DNA from: a virus
Virus record (IMG/VR): IMGVR_UViG_3300025379_000096
Span: 1-20,656 of that record
Length of the DNA stretch: 20,656 nucleotides
Direction: 5' to 3' (one strand)
In this document: positions 1 through 20,647 of the stretch, piece by piece
Layout: each line of letters starts with the position of its first letter
How positions within the stretch are numbered: position 1 is the stretch's first letter
Made by a program: the position numbers and the translations under genes
Notes under the pieces: generated by a model
Told to the model about the DNA's origin: nothing
Databases searched by the model: none
Seen by the model: only the letters and a program-made list of their open reading frames with translations

Positions 1-605
1 GGAACGTAAGCACCTAAAGATAAACTTCTTGCGTAAGGAGAAAGCATGGAAGCCGTGTCTGTATATTTAACGTCTAATGCTCGTAAGCTATTTACCGCAG
101 TCTTATTGTAATAAGCCGATAACATTGCCGCGGTATCAGAATATTTCATTGCTGAAAAACTTCTTTGATAAGGACTTAGCATTGTAGAAGTATCTGTATA
201 ATTTACTTTTAAAGCTAATTTTGAATCCGTAGAAGTTTTGTTGTAATAATTAGAAAGCATTGACGCAGTGTCCGCGTACTTAACCCTTAAAGCAATTTGT
301 GCTGCTTGATAGCTTGAATCGCTAATTAACGCATTAATATTAGTACGGTAGTTAGAAAGCATCGTAGCAGTATCAGAATATTTAACCCCTAAGAAAGAAC
401 GTAAATAAGGAGATAACATTGCCGCAGTATCGTTGTACTTCATTGCAGTTAAAGCCCTTTGATATGGCAGCAACATTGCCGCAGTATCCGTATAGTTTAC
501 CTTCCTATTTAAAGTCGTAGTGTCAAACGTAGGCAATTTAATAACTACATTTTTCTGTGCTTGAACTAAGCAAGGGAATAATATTAAAAAAAGTATTTTT
601 CTCAT
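1..605 (-). CDS. Repeat-rich exported fibre/adhesin protein, partial at the left edge
   Basis: An open frame starts at ATG 605-603 and runs with no stop to the window edge (201 codons seen; the C-terminus is missing). Residues 1-16 look like a signal peptide: a basic start (MRK), the hydrophobic core ILFLILF and a cleavage site at VQA|Q. From residue 36 the protein carries seven imperfect copies of [VM]-[KN]-Y-x-D-T-[AS]-x-M-L-[SL]-x-Y, beginning at residues 36, 55, 74, 108, 134, 153 and 179. Proteins with KYxDTAxML repeats are familiar from predicted tail fibres of Bacteroidota phages, so a receptor-contacting fibre or surface adhesin is inferred. It follows the 225-residue exported protein by 10 bases and is probably the end of the same message. 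An exported rather than virion-borne role is equally possible. Confidence 0.8.
   Translation of the reverse strand, partial: MRKILFLILFPCLVQAQKNVVIKLPTFDTTTLNRKVNYTDTAAMLLPYQRALTAMKYNDTAAMLSPYLRSFLGVKYSDTATMLSNYRTNINALISDSSYQAAQIALRVKYADTASMLSNYYNKTSTDSKLALKVNYTDTSTMLSPYQRSFSAMKYSDTAAMLSAYYNKTAVNSLRALDVKYTDTASMLSPYARSLSLGAYV
33..500 (-). repeat. Seven KYxDTAxML-encoding repeats
   Basis: Seven 13-codon units lie at 500-462, 443-405, 386-348, 284-246, 206-168, 149-111 and 71-33. Start-to-start spacing is 19, 19, 34, 26, 19 and 26 codons. The DNA of the units is similar but diverged at synonymous sites (for example GATACTGCGGCAATG against GACACGGCTTCCATG), which points to an old, protein-selected repeat rather than a fresh tandem duplication. 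The array may continue beyond the window. Confidence 0.85.
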
Positions 606-615
606 TAGTTATATA

Positions 616-1293
616 TTAAAATCTTTGTGATTCTTCCAACCAAATATAATTTTTCTTTGCCCCTGCATTTGTATTTGAAATAATTATTTGAGTGTTTGGT
701 GTTCCGTAAATAGGTACAACACTAAAATTATTTAAATTAAAAGAAGAATTATTAAATACAAAAGACTGAAACCCATTTAAATCAGTCCAATAAACATTGT
801 AAACATCCCCTACGTTAGTCCAATATTTAATATTATAGATGTGTACTAACCCGTCATTGGGTACTGTATAATTTATTGCCGTAGTCGTATCAGAACCTAT
901 ACCCGTAATAGTTGTTGTATCGTAATACTTCGCTACCGTTCTTGGAAAACTATTATTACTTATAATCCCACTCCCCCCCTGAAAATGTATTGTGTCCACT
1001 TGTAAACCATCAATACTTTTTATTGTTACATAAGTGCTATCCGAAGATTGTTGAATAGTATAGTAAGCCTTGTCGCTGCCGCCTACCTTTTTCCAATAAG
1101 TTTTTGCCCTTACATACAAAGCAGAGTCCGCTCCTATGATTACCACATTAGTATCAGCAGCACTCCAACCTGTAGTATCTCTTGTAGATAGCCCTATACC
1201 ATTGTAGTATCTAACTTTACTACCCGTAATTGGATACTGAGCAGACACAACTCCGCTAATAAATAATAATAATAATAATAAATATTTCTTCAT
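616..1293 (-). CDS. Secreted fibre-tip or adhesin-like protein with signal peptide (225 aa)
   Basis: The start at 1293 (MKKYLLLLLLF...) is preferred over the upstream ATG at 1317 because it directly begins a typical signal peptide and lies one base after the stop of the preceding gene (TAACATG junction). The peptide has a KK n-region, a six-leucine core and cleavage at VSA|Q near residue 18/19. The mature part is rich in Thr, Asn, Tyr, Ser and Asp with little charge, and contains KYYDTTT around residue 120, echoing the KYxDTA repeat of the next gene. Its C-terminal half alternates hydrophobic and polar residues, as in beta-sandwich tip domains. Receptor-binding or adhesin function is inferred from composition and position in the fibre block. 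No enzymatic motif was seen. Confidence 0.75.
   Translation of the reverse strand: MKKYLLLLLLFISGVVSAQYPITGSKVRYYNGIGLSTRDTTGWSAADTNVVIIGADSALYVRAKTYWKKVGGSDKAYYTIQQSSDSTYVTIKSIDGLQVDTIHFQGGSGIISNNSFPRTVAKYYDTTTITGIGSDTTTAINYTVPNDGLVHIYNIKYWTNVGDVYNVYWTDLNGFQSFVFNNSSFNLNNFSVVPIYGTPNTQIIISNTNAGAKKNYIWLEESQRF
1264..1281 (-). repeat. (TTA)6 microsatellite in a signal peptide
   Basis: Six perfect TTA codons encode Leu5-Leu10, the hydrophobic core of the signal peptide of the 225-residue protein. A length change by whole units would keep frame but alter core hydrophobicity. Confidence 0.9.
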
Positions 1294-1294
1294 G

Positions 1295-2137
1295 TTATAC
1301 GTTATATTGAATAGCAACTTCTTCAGTAGCTACCCAAGGATTAGAAACTGGCGTAGTTAATATACCTGTAGTACTATTCCATAACACCTGACTGATTGTA
1401 GGAGTACCAACCTCAATAACCTGGATTGGTGTAGCCCTAAACACAATATTCAATGTCTTACCAATTAACGCAGGTATAGATAATGTTTGTCCCGTTGTTA
1501 CAACAGTTTGGAATGTCCATGAAGTCGTAGGAGCCGTTGAACCTCCTGTATTAGAAGCACCTGTTATAAACCTTAAACCTCTTATCATTATCTCCATTCC
1601 CGTCTGCAATCCTATGTTAGGAGTACCATTCAAGAATGTAATAGTAGCGTTACTATCTGTATAAACTATACTGTATGAGAATTGACTTGTATCAGAAATA
1701 GGTAAGTTAGATTGCGGTAATTCCACACTAACACTATCCTTCATAATATAAGGGTAGTTAAGAATATAAGTTATATCTCCTGCTGATAAGGTACCGCCAC
1801 CTACAGTAAACTGTAAATTGAAAGCTACAATAGATGCTGATGCACCTGTAACTACATTGACAATAGAACCGGCACTACCTACCGTTAAAACGTTTTGTGC
1901 CTGTGCTTTCCACTTGCCTATTAAACTATTAAGGTAATTTCCTGTCTGATTAAATTGAGACGTACTTACATAATAAGGCTCGGCCCAACGCATCGCTTTC
2001 TTAACCAAATAAATTAACCTGCATCTTTGAGTCTCATCTACCCAAGAATAATACTTCTCTTGTTCTAATTCATTCTTAGATAAGTACAAGCTAATATCAG
2101 CCAAATTCAATAATGTATTCGCATCATTAGTAGTCAT
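1295..2137 (-). CDS. Probable tail/fibre-attachment structural protein (280 aa)
   Basis: Not recognised as a named family. The first ~80 residues are helical and charged, with several Trp and Tyr residues (KYYSWVDETQRCRLIYLVKKAMRW), suited to an attachment or oligomerisation domain. From residue ~85 on it is a low-charge, Val/Thr/Gly/Ile-rich beta-type sequence ending in NPWVATEEVAIQYNV. This two-part plan, a helical anchor and a beta-rich outer part, is common in fibre or fibre-adaptor subunits. Its start ATG overlaps the stop of the 179-residue gene (TAATG) and its stop is one base before the next start (TAACATG), so the three are probably translated in a coupled manner. It lacks a signal peptide, unlike the two proteins after it. 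Confidence 0.6.
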   Translation of the reverse strand: MTTNDANTLLNLADISLYLSKNELEQEKYYSWVDETQRCRLIYLVKKAMRWAEPYYVSTSQFNQTGNYLNSLIGKWKAQAQNVLTVGSAGSIVNVVTGASASIVAFNLQFTVGGGTLSAGDITYILNYPYIMKDSVSVELPQSNLPISDTSQFSYSIVYTDSNATITFLNGTPNIGLQTGMEIMIRGLRFITGASNTGGSTAPTTSWTFQTVVTTGQTLSIPALIGKTLNIVFRATPIQVIEVGTPTISQVLWNSTTGILTTPVSNPWVATEEVAIQYNV

Positions 2138-2676
2138 TAGAATCTAAGGTTAGACTGTGATATAATTAATGCAGCCCTGTTTAACGCAGCATCTGCTGAT
2201 AACAAATCCCCATAAGTAGCCGCCTTACTAGCCGCATCCTCTTCTGTTTGTAAAGCACCCCATGAATCATAAAACCCTTCCTGATTAACCCTCATAGGAT
2301 TTGATGCAGCAATCTCACATACACTATATAAAAATTTACTTGTATAACAAATTAATAAAACCAATTGTGTTATATTATAAACAGAACCAGAAACTGGCGC
2401 ATTTGAAACCAAAATTAATTCTACGTTAAGCGCATAGTCTTTATCTATATTAGTAATAGTAATAGAGTCCGCAGGATAAAGCGCAAAACTAAAATCTATA
2501 TAGTCTGTAGTACTTGAAGATGGAAATTTAAACGTAGTGCCATCAGCCTTATATAAATAAAGTCTTCTTGAAGAAAAGGTACTCTTTGCTTCACTAGCGT
2601 AACTACTTGTATCAGTTATTGTTAACTGAGTACAATCCTGTCCCTGAGTTGCCGTAAAGCTGGCTGTAAAGCTCAT
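2137..2676 (-). CDS. Probable virion structural protein, first gene of the fibre block (179 aa)
   Basis: The protein opens with a beta-rich stretch (MSFTASFTATQGQDCTQLTI) followed by DTSSYASEA and SSRRLYLYKADG, a layout I associate with small structural proteins in Bacteroidota phage fibre regions, though I cannot name the family. The middle is hydrophobic and beta-like (residues ~65-120, with LVLLICY); the last 50 residues are helical and Ala-rich. It starts 15 bases downstream of a TATATTTG promoter element and therefore probably leads the fibre transcription unit. The stop overlaps the next start. A tail-to-fibre adaptor or short fibre subunit is inferred from position only. Confidence 0.55.
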   Translation of the reverse strand: MSFTASFTATQGQDCTQLTITDTSSYASEAKSTFSSRRLYLYKADGTTFKFPSSSTTDYIDFSFALYPADSITITNIDKDYALNVELILVSNAPVSGSVYNITQLVLLICYTSKFLYSVCEIAASNPMRVNQEGFYDSWGALQTEEDAASKAATYGDLLSADAALNRAALIISQSNLRF

Positions 2677-13264: not shown

Positions 13265-16200
13265 TTAAAAGTTTATATAGTTTCTTGCGCTTATTTTATA
13301 ACCAATATATAAGCCTGACAAATATACGAAATTAGTACCACTGTTTTGTCTGAATGTCATCTCTATCCAAGTTCCCTTTAAATAGTCGCCATCATTAACT
13401 CCACCCAAACTATTGCTATCTCTTGATAAAGAAGCGTGGTACATACCCTCCATTAACTCATAGTCTCCTACAACAACATTACTTTTTTGTCCTAAAGAAG
13501 TATTGACATCTCCAATAATATTAGAAACCCAATAGTCATTAGAATTAACTCCTACATAGTCAAATGTCTTTTTAATAACATCTAAACTATTAAAAACAAA
13601 TGTTATAGCAGATGGCGTATTTACTCCATAGAAAGTATTTTGTACTGTGTTATTGTGTACATATAGAACTCCATTCTTCCAGCTTATAATTCCATTATTT
13701 GCTGATATAAACCATTCAGGTTCATAAGAATAAAAAGAACTGTAAGCATTTTTCTTTTCGTTAAATCCTACTGTATATGGAGTTAAAGTAACACTTGATT
13801 TAGTACCTGATTGAAATGCAGATACATATTCTTCTTCAAATGAATCATACATGCCTAATACCTTAGCATATCCACCAGAAGACCTAATATATCCTGTATC
13901 TAAATATTTAGCTGATATTGATGGAAAAAAGTATTGCCCTTTATATAGCTCACTTAAAGCAGTATTGCCGTCTCCTGAAAGTCTTATATGATACCCATTA
14001 ATAGGGTCTACAAAGTAATCAGCAGAAGATGATGATGCTAAAGAACAATATAAATTACCTATACCAAAACGTCCTGCGTAATAATTAATAGGGTTTATAA
14101 TTTTTACAGAACCTATTAAATTTGTAGAACCATCTTGGTTACTTAATTCAGTAGCGTATACATTTACTACACCAGTTCCCCTTGATTGAAATACCCTTAA
14201 TATTTTTTCTCTTAATTTAAACCTTTGTATATCTCCTTTACTTCTGTCATACTCATCATAATTAATAGGATAAAATCTATTGATATCGTTTATTAAAGTT
14301 CCTTGCTGATAAGTACCTCCATATCTTACTAAAGTAGAATTGTATATTTCTTTTGCATATGTGTCTATAACAAATGGCCTGCCATTACCTATTACTTCAG
14401 AAGGATATTTATCAGAAACAGATTGGTCTAGTATCCATAATGTTCCATTTCTTTCTCTGGAATAAACATCTCCTCTATAAAAATTAAATATAGCAGGTTG
14501 CGCTCCCGTACCTATGACTTGATTTTGTTGTTGACCTAAATGAACAAGATTGCCATTTACATCATTGCCTGTCCTATACGTTTCCCCAAATTCATAAAAT
14601 ACTTGTAAATCAGTATTTGTATTTGTAGCAGGAGTGTATACCTCTATGTAAAAATAATTATAACCTGTTGTCCCCCAAGAAGACATATTTGAATCGTACT
14701 GTAATTTTATAAAAAATCCATTTGTAGGGAAAGAAGAACCTGTAGGCTTGTCTGTTATTACATCTAAAATAGGATAATCAATAACAGTAGAATTACCATA
14801 ATAAGGAGGCGTTACTGTTGCACTACCACCTACTACTCCTATTACTCTAACCCTATCTCCTTTAGTATACGTGTAAGCAGAATATCCATTTGTATTTGTA
14901 TTGTAAGATGTAATATCTAAATATCCGTTAACAGAGTTTTGATAAGCACTATCAACTGTAATACTTTTAAATGAAGCTACAGTTAAATTATTTGTTCTTA
15001 CAAAAGAAAAATATTCTGCCCATGAAGGAGGAGGATTGTTTATAGAAAACTTAATACTTGGTATTGTTAATTGAGTAACGGTTAAATTTGTATTTTCTAT
15101 TTCAGGAGTAATTATTTTTAAAGTGTCATTTGTCATAACACCATTAGTTACCCCATATCTATCAAAATAACATATACCAAAAGCATATCTTGAGTTGTGT
15201 TTATATATAGAAGTATTTACATCAGTTGGAGTTCCTCCTGAAGGAGTTGCATAAGCAACAGTAGCATTAACATATAATACTCTTCCTTTACCAGAAGGGT
15301 TAGCCATGACTATTGCTATGTTTGGCGTAGTTTGGTCGCTTGCTACAATATGATAAATAGAATTTAATACAGTAGAATTAATAGCCGTTCTTAATCTTTG
15401 TTCTAAAATATTTAAAGCAGTATCTCCTGAATAAGAACCTACAGTATAATTTATTGTTGTAGCATAAGTAAGGTAGGTTCCTGATGTATAATCACAAACA
15501 CTAATTAACATAGAAATGACATCTCCAACTTGAGGATTGCCATTCATATTTACATAATAATTTCCTGTAAATGGCCCAGGAGGATAACTACCCGATATAG
15601 TATCTGAGTTAGTAAATGTTAATGGAGTTGAAGTAGCTGTATTTGGAACTAATGTTATTGTAGGTGCTGATATATTTAGTGTAATATTAGGTGTATTACC
15701 CTCAGTTATACCTCCATATATTAATACATTACCATTTAAAAGTTCTTGCGTATTTGCTTTTTTAGGAACGTAATCAAATAATAAAGCATCTTCAGCAGCA
15801 TCTACATATTCGTAACTTCCATCATTTATAAAATAATAAGTATAAATACTATTATCTGCAATAGACAATAAAGACTTATCTAATGTTGTTATTAATAAAG
15901 ATGCAGAAAATGTTGTTGATAAACTTTCTCTTGCTGATATCTCTATTTTAACACAATCAGATGGGCCTGTTTGTATAATTGTTTGTATTGTATTATTTTT
16001 AGATGGGTCAATATCTGTACCTAAAATATCAGCATTTGCAGGCGCAAACAATTTACTATACGGACTCCATGTTGATTTTGTATTGTCTCTATAAACCCAT
16101 CTGTATCTTAATTGGAATAATTTACTTTTAAGATTATTTAATGTTGTTATGCCACTATAAACAGAATCAATATAACTACAAACAGGAGCTATTAATGGCA

Positions 16201-16744
16201 TTACCCTAGCCACTCTTAAGTAATCTGCTTGCCAATTAGTACCACTAGAATAAAGAGTATTAGATAGAGCGTCATTAATATTTAAAAAACAAGGTCTTTG
16301 ATTTCTATCAGTCCAATATAATACGTCTCCTTCATTAACATCTTTATAAACTATATTAATAGAAGCTATTGGATAGTTTGGATTAAAATTAAATATATCG
16401 TAAAAGCTATTTGTAAAACTAACTAATACAGGCGTTATAGTACCTAATATAGTGTCGTAATAATAAATTCCATTCTTGCCCGTGCTATTGTAGTTAAAAT
16501 AATAAACTCTATTTTTTACTTCATCAAAATGAGAACCTATACAAATATTTTGTCCTGAAGGGAGAGAGTTAGTTATAGATGTATTACCAGGAATACTCTC
16601 AACACGATTTGAACCGGCATGGCCTCTGAATCTTACATTCATAGCATACTTGTGGTGATGCGCAGGGATAACATCATTGTTGTCATCCAAGTTCATAATA
16701 CCACCAAACTGTTTGTTCTCTATAGGTAACCTTCCTCTTGGCAT
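13265..16744 (-). CDS. Large tail protein, crAss-like 'stabilization'/tail-tip type (1159 aa)
   Basis: The N-terminus (MPRGRLPIENKQFGGIMNLD, then a run with HHHKYAMNVRFRG) strongly recalls the large tail 'stabilization' proteins of crAss-like phages, which are distantly grouped with P22 gp10-like tail proteins. The body is almost entirely beta-type: Tyr/Asn/Thr/Ser/Gly-rich with repeated short strands (for example VYYFNYNSTGKNGIYYYDT at ~77-95). This fits a propeller or sandwich assembly at the distal tail. No signal peptide or transmembrane segment was seen. It starts three bases after the 255-residue connector gene and is the last gene of the tail block before the cargo genes, the usual order in this phage group. 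The C-terminus (FVYLSGLYIGYKISARNYINF) is a final beta strand region. Confidence 0.7.
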   Translation of the reverse strand: MPRGRLPIENKQFGGIMNLDDNNDVIPAHHHKYAMNVRFRGHAGSNRVESIPGNTSITNSLPSGQNICIGSHFDEVKNRVYYFNYNSTGKNGIYYYDTILGTITPVLVSFTNSFYDIFNFNPNYPIASINIVYKDVNEGDVLYWTDRNQRPCFLNINDALSNTLYSSGTNWQADYLRVARVMPLIAPVCSYIDSVYSGITTLNNLKSKLFQLRYRWVYRDNTKSTWSPYSKLFAPANADILGTDIDPSKNNTIQTIIQTGPSDCVKIEISARESLSTTFSASLLITTLDKSLLSIADNSIYTYYFINDGSYEYVDAAEDALLFDYVPKKANTQELLNGNVLIYGGITEGNTPNITLNISAPTITLVPNTATSTPLTFTNSDTISGSYPPGPFTGNYYVNMNGNPQVGDVISMLISVCDYTSGTYLTYATTINYTVGSYSGDTALNILEQRLRTAINSTVLNSIYHIVASDQTTPNIAIVMANPSGKGRVLYVNATVAYATPSGGTPTDVNTSIYKHNSRYAFGICYFDRYGVTNGVMTNDTLKIITPEIENTNLTVTQLTIPSIKFSINNPPPSWAEYFSFVRTNNLTVASFKSITVDSAYQNSVNGYLDITSYNTNTNGYSAYTYTKGDRVRVIGVVGGSATVTPPYYGNSTVIDYPILDVITDKPTGSSFPTNGFFIKLQYDSNMSSWGTTGYNYFYIEVYTPATNTNTDLQVFYEFGETYRTGNDVNGNLVHLGQQQNQVIGTGAQPAIFNFYRGDVYSRERNGTLWILDQSVSDKYPSEVIGNGRPFVIDTYAKEIYNSTLVRYGGTYQQGTLINDINRFYPINYDEYDRSKGDIQRFKLREKILRVFQSRGTGVVNVYATELSNQDGSTNLIGSVKIINPINYYAGRFGIGNLYCSLASSSSADYFVDPINGYHIRLSGDGNTALSELYKGQYFFPSISAKYLDTGYIRSSGGYAKVLGMYDSFEEEYVSAFQSGTKSSVTLTPYTVGFNEKKNAYSSFYSYEPEWFISANNGIISWKNGVLYVHNNTVQNTFYGVNTPSAITFVFNSLDVIKKTFDYVGVNSNDYWVSNIIGDVNTSLGQKSNVVVGDYELMEGMYHASLSRDSNSLGGVNDGDYLKGTWIEMTFRQNSGTNFVYLSGLYIGYKISARNYINF

Positions 16745-19876: not shown

Positions 19877-20647
19877 TTAGACATCTTGACATTCTTTTTT
19901 AAGCACTTCGCCACCATTAAGTACTAAATATTCTTCATTAGTAAGATACTTCCATTTATACCCATAAGCTGTACCAAGTTTTCCAGTAAGACAACTGGAT
20001 ATATTAGACCTTCCTTTACCTATACTTTTTGAAGCATCTTGTACATTTAAAAAATAATTTAACATATTACCTTCTCTATCTAACATTGCCACACAATTAG
20101 AGTAACATGTATTAAAATTTTTTATTCTTATGTTGTCTGCTCTTTCTTTACCATTTACTATTTCTTTTTGTTTACGTTTCCATTCAGGGTCAGCTGCTCT
20201 TTTTTTAGCTGCATCATTTATGCCTTTAATCCAATTAGGATTCAAAGACCTTTTTTTAATCATATCTCTATGCTTAGCTAAATTATTAGGGTCAGAAAAT
20301 CTTTTCTTTTGTATCTCACTATTCATAGCACAAAACTCATCAGCCCTTTTTACTCCTCTATTTGTAACAGGTTCCAACCTTACATTAAAAGTATTGTCTT
20401 TATATATTTGACACCAATATAATTCCCTTTCGTTCAATATATTTATTTCACAATATTCTACTGGTTCAAAAATAAAATCTTCTATTGGATATTTTTTTGC
20501 ATAGTTATACAAATGCCTATTTATAATTCTTTTAGGATTAATAAACCAATTTCTATGGGCTTGCAATCTTCTTTCTAAATCATCAGATTGACCTATATAA
20601 GTCTTGCCTGATTGAATATGTACTATTTTATAAATTCCAGACTTCAT
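19877..20647 (-). CDS. Freestanding GIY-YIG homing endonuclease with NUMOD-type repeats (256 aa)
   Basis: Residues 1-90 are a GIY-YIG nuclease domain: G4-I5-Y6, Y17-I18-G19, the catalytic Arg region ERRLQAHR (25-32), and Glu75 in NEREL-YWCQIYK as the metal ligand. Residues 114-163 hold three 17-residue units beginning KKR, with a later [DN]P (114, 131, 148), like the DNA-contacting NUMOD3-type repeats of homing nucleases. Residues ~186-236 (VAMLDREGNMLNYFLNVQDA, then ISSCLTGKLGTAYGYKWKYL) are a NUMOD1-like helical DNA-binding module. All catalytic residues are present and the gene is complete, so it is probably active and nicks or cuts a nearby cognate site. It stands beside late virion genes and is not inside an intron that I can detect in this window. 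Confidence 0.9.
   Translation of the reverse strand: MKSGIYKIVHIQSGKTYIGQSDDLERRLQAHRNWFINPKRIINRHLYNYAKKYPIEDFIFEPVEYCEINILNERELYWCQIYKDNTFNVRLEPVTNRGVKRADEFCAMNSEIQKKRFSDPNNLAKHRDMIKKRSLNPNWIKGINDAAKKRAADPEWKRKQKEIVNGKERADNIRIKNFNTCYSNCVAMLDREGNMLNYFLNVQDASKSIGKGRSNISSCLTGKLGTAYGYKWKYLTNEEYLVLNGGEVLKKECQDV

Follow-up and report, generated by a model that had tools for sequence, protein, structure and literature searches.

Predicted exported tail-fibre proteins with glutamine at +1 and O-glycosylation motifs in a crAss-like phage of Bacteroidota

Tailed-phage virions assemble in the cytoplasm, and tail fibres are taught as being folded and attached there. The exported morons Lom of lambda and Llp of T5 are encoded beside receptor-binding genes; they differ from the proteins described here in being small outer-membrane proteins or lipoproteins rather than long fibres, in phages that have separate fibres. 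For the Bacteroidetes, the Q-rule describes substrates of signal peptidase I that carry Gln at +1 (PMC5837995, PMC10653852). Q-rule proteins have already been reported in P. gingivalis phages (proposed Nixviridae; PMC10367356), in which the predicted cleavage of phage proteins likewise exposes Gln; five such proteins are given there, of unknown function and not assigned as fibres. Targets of phage DGRs have been stated to be without signal peptides (PMC6199706). Bacteroidota glycosylate only non-cytoplasmic proteins, at Ser/Thr after Asp and before mostly L, I, V, T, A or S, with nearly full occupancy of the sites and over-representation of the motif in exported proteins (PMC12871550, PMC8729774).

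The locus analysed here shares with the known Q-rule substrates (PMC5837995, PMC10653852) a signal peptide with an Ala/Ser/Gly-rich c-region and Gln at +1, and differs from them in that its genes are phage-encoded and lie in a tail-fibre slot; the pyroglutamate is here predicted from sequence. Its products resemble the general O-glycoproteins of Bacteroidota (PMC12871550, PMC8729774, PMC8550257) in their predicted export, their enrichment in D[ST][AILVMT] and their disfavoured third residues, but are viral proteins of structural type whose glycans are predicted from the motif. With conventional fibres and tailspikes (gp85/gp87 of phi38:1; the slot genes of L038-L042) they have in common the slot, long beta-rich shafts and S74, tailspike or esterase domains; the conventional proteins start without a signal peptide, and the control set of them is depleted in the glycosylation motif. 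Q-rule phage proteins are published. A search of the open-access literature, most subscription papers not being searchable, met no account of Bacteroidota phages whose tail fibres are exported, O-glycosylated or marked for glycosylation.

The window and its putative fibre genes

The window (the whole stretch of DNA analysed, 20,656 bases) is an IMG/VR virus fragment in which minus-strand virion genes lead up to the reported block at the left edge. The block comes after these genes, and the window does not reach the lysis genes. The features used below are as follows.

3..605, minus strand: P0001, N-terminal 201 aa of a predicted long exported fibre; ATG at 605, gene cut by the left window edge
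558-605, minus strand: P0001 predicted signal peptide, residues 1-16, MRKILFLILFPCLVQA; codon of Gln17 (+1) at 555-557
616..1293, minus strand: P0002 (225 aa), putative exported protein, either a short fibre or a member of the fibre cassette; start codon ATG at 1293, last base of the stop codon at 616
1240-1293, minus strand: P0002 predicted signal peptide, residues 1-18, MKKYLLLLLLFISGVVSA; codon of Gln19 (+1) at 1237-1239
1078..1239, minus strand: P0002 mature N-terminal module, QYPITGSKVRYYNGIGL..DSALYVRAKTYWKKVGG, from an alignment of 16 sequences
1295..2137, minus strand: 280-aa protein that lacks a signal peptide and adjoins the fibre slot on its upstream side; candidate virion-side adaptor
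2137..2676, minus strand: 179-aa protein without signal peptide, conserved in crAss-like relatives
13265..16744, minus strand: crAss-type muzzle protein (PF25729, E 1.5e-6; phrog_14478, E 1.1e-52)

The PF25729 match of the muzzle protein is to the Crassvirales muzzle C-terminal domain, and this protein and several adjoining ones match virion families (PHROG). The closest isolates by muzzle are Cellulophaga phi38:1 and Calle, Flavobacterium elemo and Maribacter Panino. The phage is placed as crAss-like by the muzzle and the adjoining virion proteins; portal, capsid and terminase are outside the 20.6-kb fragment. Elsewhere in the window, a 790-aa phage protein (6103-8475, minus strand) bears a LAGLIDADG intein at about residues 293-646, its homologue in the contig of L003 having 434 aa and no intein, and a homing-endonuclease-like 256-aa protein (19877-20647, minus strand) sits amid the virion genes.

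Signal peptides were called by a simple rule; the crude rule shifts some cleavage sites by 1-3 residues, so the Q-sites were also read by eye. The earlier note had given both proteins signal peptides with Gln at +1, and this is confirmed on the minus strand: P0002 reads MKKYLLLLLLFISGVVSA and continues after the predicted cleavage with QYPITG, and P0001 reads MRKILFLILFPCLVQA and continues with QKNVV. Each has a basic n-region, a hydrophobic core, small residues at -3/-1 and Gln at +1. The signal sequence of P0001 is moderate, with Pro and Cys inside the hydrophobic stretch. The appeal to the Q-rule in that note also holds, in that Gln is the first residue of the predicted mature protein and is retained in homologues despite strong divergence, and the upstream 179-aa and 280-aa proteins do start without a signal peptide, as it had stated.

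The gaps to the upstream neighbours are 1 base for P0002 and 10 bases for P0001, a spacing as in an operon. P0001 carries shaft repeats of the form YxDTAxMLSxY, with D-T-[AS] in each, and a close relative (L002) has a full length of 1144 aa. Neither protein has a Pfam match, and PHROG gave one weak match for P0001, to a family of unknown function; no recognised fibre or tailspike domain was found with Pfam or PHROG in P0002 or in the portion of P0001 inside the window. No match was obtained by tblastn of both proteins against the phage collection. Structure prediction gave pLDDT values of 40 for P0002 and 58 for its N-terminal module.

Distribution, gene order and cassette exchange

Relatives were collected by an IMG/VR scan with P0001, in which 29 were found, mainly via the repeats. 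A signal peptide with Gln at +1 is present in all 28 relatives that have an intact N-terminus. The strict signal-peptide-plus-Gln pattern was found in 30 of 617 non-redundant phage-locus ORFs, compared with 0.38 in composition shuffles, and 62 of 401 ORFs were positive by a looser rule, +1 being Gln in 35 and the next residues reaching 5 each. The post-cleavage sequences of the relatives belong to several unrelated modules (QTVIYGKYKY, QVYQxMPQ and QWTPINGKQRF types), all of which keep the signal peptide and Gln; the repeat-less slot proteins L060, L062 and L020 start in the same way. The pattern, confirmed in these predictions, is real and general in many uncultured Bacteroidota phages, a breadth that the earlier note missed, as it did the O-glycosylation motif. 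No exported fibre was found in seven sampled isolates (phi38:1, elemo, Panino, 11b, FCL-2, B40-8 and P12002L), and the trait is therefore not universal; a search for cultured members, or for virion proteomics or localisation of any member, found none.

In crAss-like and contractile-tailed phages, and in others, the genes with this pattern occupy the tail-fibre slot, with tail genes on one side and lysis genes on the other. Each cluster runs from one or two fibres through small proteins of the same kind to holin-, spanin- and lysozyme-like genes, the lysis genes being assigned from sequence reading. Baseplate genes precede the block in L002, L015 and related contigs (hub phrog_4930; DUF2586, PF10758, in L015 and L025), and crAss-type genes precede it in L005 and L021, as in the window; in L029 portal and tape-measure-like genes of a different type lie upstream of it. 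No other fibre-like gene was found among the ORFs of at least 200 aa in the crAss-like contigs G002, G003 and G008 (55-72 kb). Some relatives match the Peptidase_S74 chaperone, tail fibre and tailspike PHROGs, SASA acetylesterase or GDSL esterase (PF03629, PF13472), those with tailspike, S74 or esterase matches being L002, L005, L018, L020 and L062. The S74 part of L005 used as a query retrieved just unrelated S74 fibres.

The window's closest crAss-like relatives, L038-L042, have in the same slot a fibre without a signal peptide (MVVQSIGLVTDLRGQNKN..), which in L038 matches a tail fibre PHROG. Since exported fibres are present in some phages and signal-less ones in the slot of others, they look like alternatives for one slot. 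A census was made with the tail gene immediately upstream of the slot as the only bait. It gave 55 non-redundant slot genes, of which 32 had a signal peptide and Gln, two another hydrophobic start and 21 neither. The same bait applied to bacterial genomes yielded four MAG loci: the slot protein is exported in L060 and L062 and not exported in L063, and the contig of L061 is too short.

Small genes with the same start were also seen. In contractile phages, a protein of about 142 aa with signal peptide and Gln (L035 2065-2493, L014 1946-2377, L030 1637-2065) sits between a putative capsid gene and a DUF2586-like tail gene, where a decoration protein might be expected; at this position L015 has a 253-aa protein without signal peptide. 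A family of about 120 aa, also with signal peptide and Gln, lies directly after the fibre gene and ahead of the lysis genes (L002 6590-6952, L021 15816-16199, L023 7221-7571, L024 11784-12134, L005 13599-13952). In G008 (the record of L021) two genes found near one end (1429-2831) recur, inverted, near the other (69597-70999), which probably reflects the assembly or a terminal repeat.

The N-terminal module family (16 sequences, from crAss-like and contractile-tailed phages) has the consensus QWTPIxGKQRFxxGLGIPxxDT..ADSxQIVxRPxDSxLYxRYKGxWxK and starts at most three residues from the cleavage site. Conservation is highest at an Arg and at three D-[ST] pairs; Ser or Thr follows 47 of the 52 Asp residues of the modules, in pairs that count among the best conserved positions. 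This type-A module occurs in podo-type as well as myo-type phages; for an anchor specific to one morphotype this would be unexpected, unless both types also have the dock in common. In the contractile phages a domain of about 75 residues, a plausible virion-side dock, forms the C-terminus of the protein encoded just ahead of the slot. The best further matches of its profile among 1047 ORFs were slot-upstream proteins of crAss-like and other phages, and the C-terminal part of the 280-aa protein of the window (about 1310-1507) gave a weak match (E 0.0017). Exported fibres in the contractile set numbered 31/34 with the dock and 3/22 without it, and a tree of the neighbouring gene gave three well-supported independent contrasts for this association, too few for significance. 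Dock-like ends also precede the signal-less fibres of L038-L042. On account of the three contrasts and these signal-less cases, the dock was rejected as a mark specific to exported fibres and is retained as a candidate adaptor only.

The left end of the window is shared with other phages.

1..1104, minus strand: stretch shared with the contractile-phage contigs L002, L035, L036 and L037 at 98-99% DNA identity

The window is without 192 bases of repeats (in frame) that are present in these four contigs. The first ~65 residues of P0002 show only a distant relation between the window phage and the contractile phages, and the identity breaks at KTYWKKVGG, the end of the N-terminal module. This appears to be the usual pattern of receptor-binding gene exchange, in which the N-terminal part stays with its phage and what follows is swapped; a signal peptide is present in both N-terminal parts, each its own. 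An assembly chimera might account for the identity, the window being a single contig, but the four myophage contigs show no differences among themselves, and compared with them the window has a mismatch, 28 bases inside the common stretch, as well as the 192-base repeat deletion.

The repeats were also found in eight of 299 genomes from the order to which a Parafilimonas MAG belongs. The host repeat loci inspected are not prophage-like, lying beside fusA-like and ribosomal protein genes or beside a PorP/SprF gene (PF11751, E 1.2e-26), and the host repeat proteins with a readable start also open with a signal peptide and Gln. In L089-L096 (Chitinophagales genomes) the chromosome encodes exported proteins that reach 2200 aa and contain the YxDTAxML repeats of the phage fibres. 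Likely hosts of phages with such fibres are freshwater Chitinophagales or other strains of Bacteroidota. Descent from host adhesins, one of the possibilities raised in the earlier note, gains partial support from the occurrence of the same repeats with signal peptide and Gln in non-phage Chitinophagales loci; capture of the fibres from host surface proteins is plausible as one of the two directions of transfer.

The O-glycosylation motif

Occurrences of D[ST][AILVMT] were counted against residue shuffles. The exported fibres contain 379 sites compared with 114.7 after shuffling (3.3x; 2.9x with the repeats masked) and the signal-less Bacteroidota phage fibres 33 compared with 54.6 (0.6x). Ratios were 1.2x in other virion proteins, 5.4x in the host chromosomal repeat proteins and 1.4x in all other ORFs, a set that retains some exported fibres missed by the strict pattern. 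As positive controls from among known periplasmic phage proteins, 16 lipobox proteins of these loci gave 7.8x and spanin-like proteins of isolates 5.6x. For the census slot genes the values were 3.26x with signal peptide and Gln versus 1.06x without signal peptide, and for the Chitinophagales host loci 1.7x in exported proteins (a small sample) and 0.66x in the rest. P0002 has six sites and P0001 seven.

When each of the 20 residues was placed before [ST][AILVMT], only D was strongly raised (3.31, the next being 1.34); in signal-less fibres D gave 0.61. After D[ST], the exported fibres are depleted in G, N, F, Y, D, P, Q and R, a pattern that signal-less fibres do not have, and the disfavoured third residues G, N, P, D, Q and F agree with the measured motif (PMC12871550). 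With proteins clustered at 40% identity (nine exported and 12 signal-less clusters), a one-sided Mann-Whitney test gave p = 1e-4, or 4e-4 with the repeats masked.

The enrichment provides independent evidence that the predicted export is real, and may point to a possible reason for it. The motif statistics make it likely that the exported fibres are O-glycosylated. Such glycosylation need not be complete, because abundant surface proteins of P. gingivalis avoid O-glycosylation (PMC8729774).

Proposed assembly route and competing explanations

Proteins of the P0001/P0002 type are, judged from their N-termini, very probably exported and cleaved. That they are part of the virion is probable, in view of gene position, the domains of relatives and the lack of alternatives. 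The earlier note had offered four roles without ranking them; of these, attachment to virions at lysis is favoured by the slot, the lack of a rival fibre gene in large contigs, the signal-less fibres of sister phages and the domains of relatives, with coating of the host surface or a block to superinfection being less likely.

The signal peptides, the +1 Gln, the slot, the domains of the relatives, the motif enrichment and the cassette exchange are all present in the sequences, and are consistent with the following route. P0001 and P0002 would be the tail fibres with which a crAss-like Bacteroidota phage binds its receptor, and a Sec signal peptide would take them across into the periplasm. 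The cut by signal peptidase I would expose Gln, which under the Q-rule would be cyclised to pyroglutamate, and the general D-[ST]-[AILVMT] system of the host would probably O-glycosylate the fibres, which would fold in the periplasm. Holin, endolysin and spanin would then open the envelope, and the fibres would meet virions assembled in the cytoplasm, the N-terminal module binding an adaptor encoded just upstream (in the window, the 280-aa protein). Cleavage, pyroglutamate, glycans, presence in the virion and docking at lysis are the steps that we infer. The whole route, of exported, capped and probably glycosylated receptor-binding fibres joining virions at lysis, is favoured, by a small measure.

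The strongest competitor, which we regard as unlikely, is that the proteins are exported yet never enter the virion and act in the periplasm or at the host surface, as adhesins, in a receptor-masking superinfection block, or as shed decoys against adsorption to debris. The signal peptide, the Q-rule and the glycosylation motif would suit any exported protein, the repeats with signal peptide and Gln recur in non-phage host loci, and the lambda and T5 morons also adjoin tail genes. Modification of the outer membrane by Q-rule phage proteins was the guess made in the P. gingivalis phage study (PMC10367356). Export without virion attachment would nevertheless leave three large crAss-like contigs without a tail fibre, ordinary fibres fill the slot in sister phages, and members match the S74 chaperone, tail fibre, tailspike and esterase families.

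Dual targeting, with a full-length fraction staying in the cytoplasm to enter virions and the exported fraction having another role, would fit the cytoplasmic assembly of tailed-phage virions and the moderate strength of some signal sequences, such as that of P0001 with its Pro and Cys; we consider it improbable, as the cleavage site and +1 Gln are strictly kept across divergent sequences and the D-[ST] sites of the N-terminal module are conserved, both of which argue that the cleaved, exported form is the one that works. It is very improbable that the signal peptides and motif-rich repeats are functionless relics of a recent capture of host surface-protein genes, as homologous repeats in Chitinophagales chromosomes and the recent movement of the cassette between phages might suggest, given that the unrelated N-terminal modules all retain signal peptide and Gln, that repeat-less slot proteins have them too and that the enrichment survives repeat masking.

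Extended beyond this phage, the preferred reading of fibres that join virions at lysis leads to a broader proposal, which we advance tentatively: a large class of Bacteroidota tailed phages, of several tail types, may have fibres that are Sec-exported, pyroglutamate-capped, O-glycosylated by the host and docked when the envelope opens. The signal peptide together with the D[ST][AILVMT] signature offers a simple computational flag for exported proteins of Bacteroidota phages. If the route is true, fibres cloned in E. coli for study would be without sugars. Fibres could carry host glycans, which may affect folding, protease resistance or recognition, and the tips of the virions would wear host sugars. 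Virion assembly would end outside the cytoplasm, and the timing of lysis would become an assembly step.
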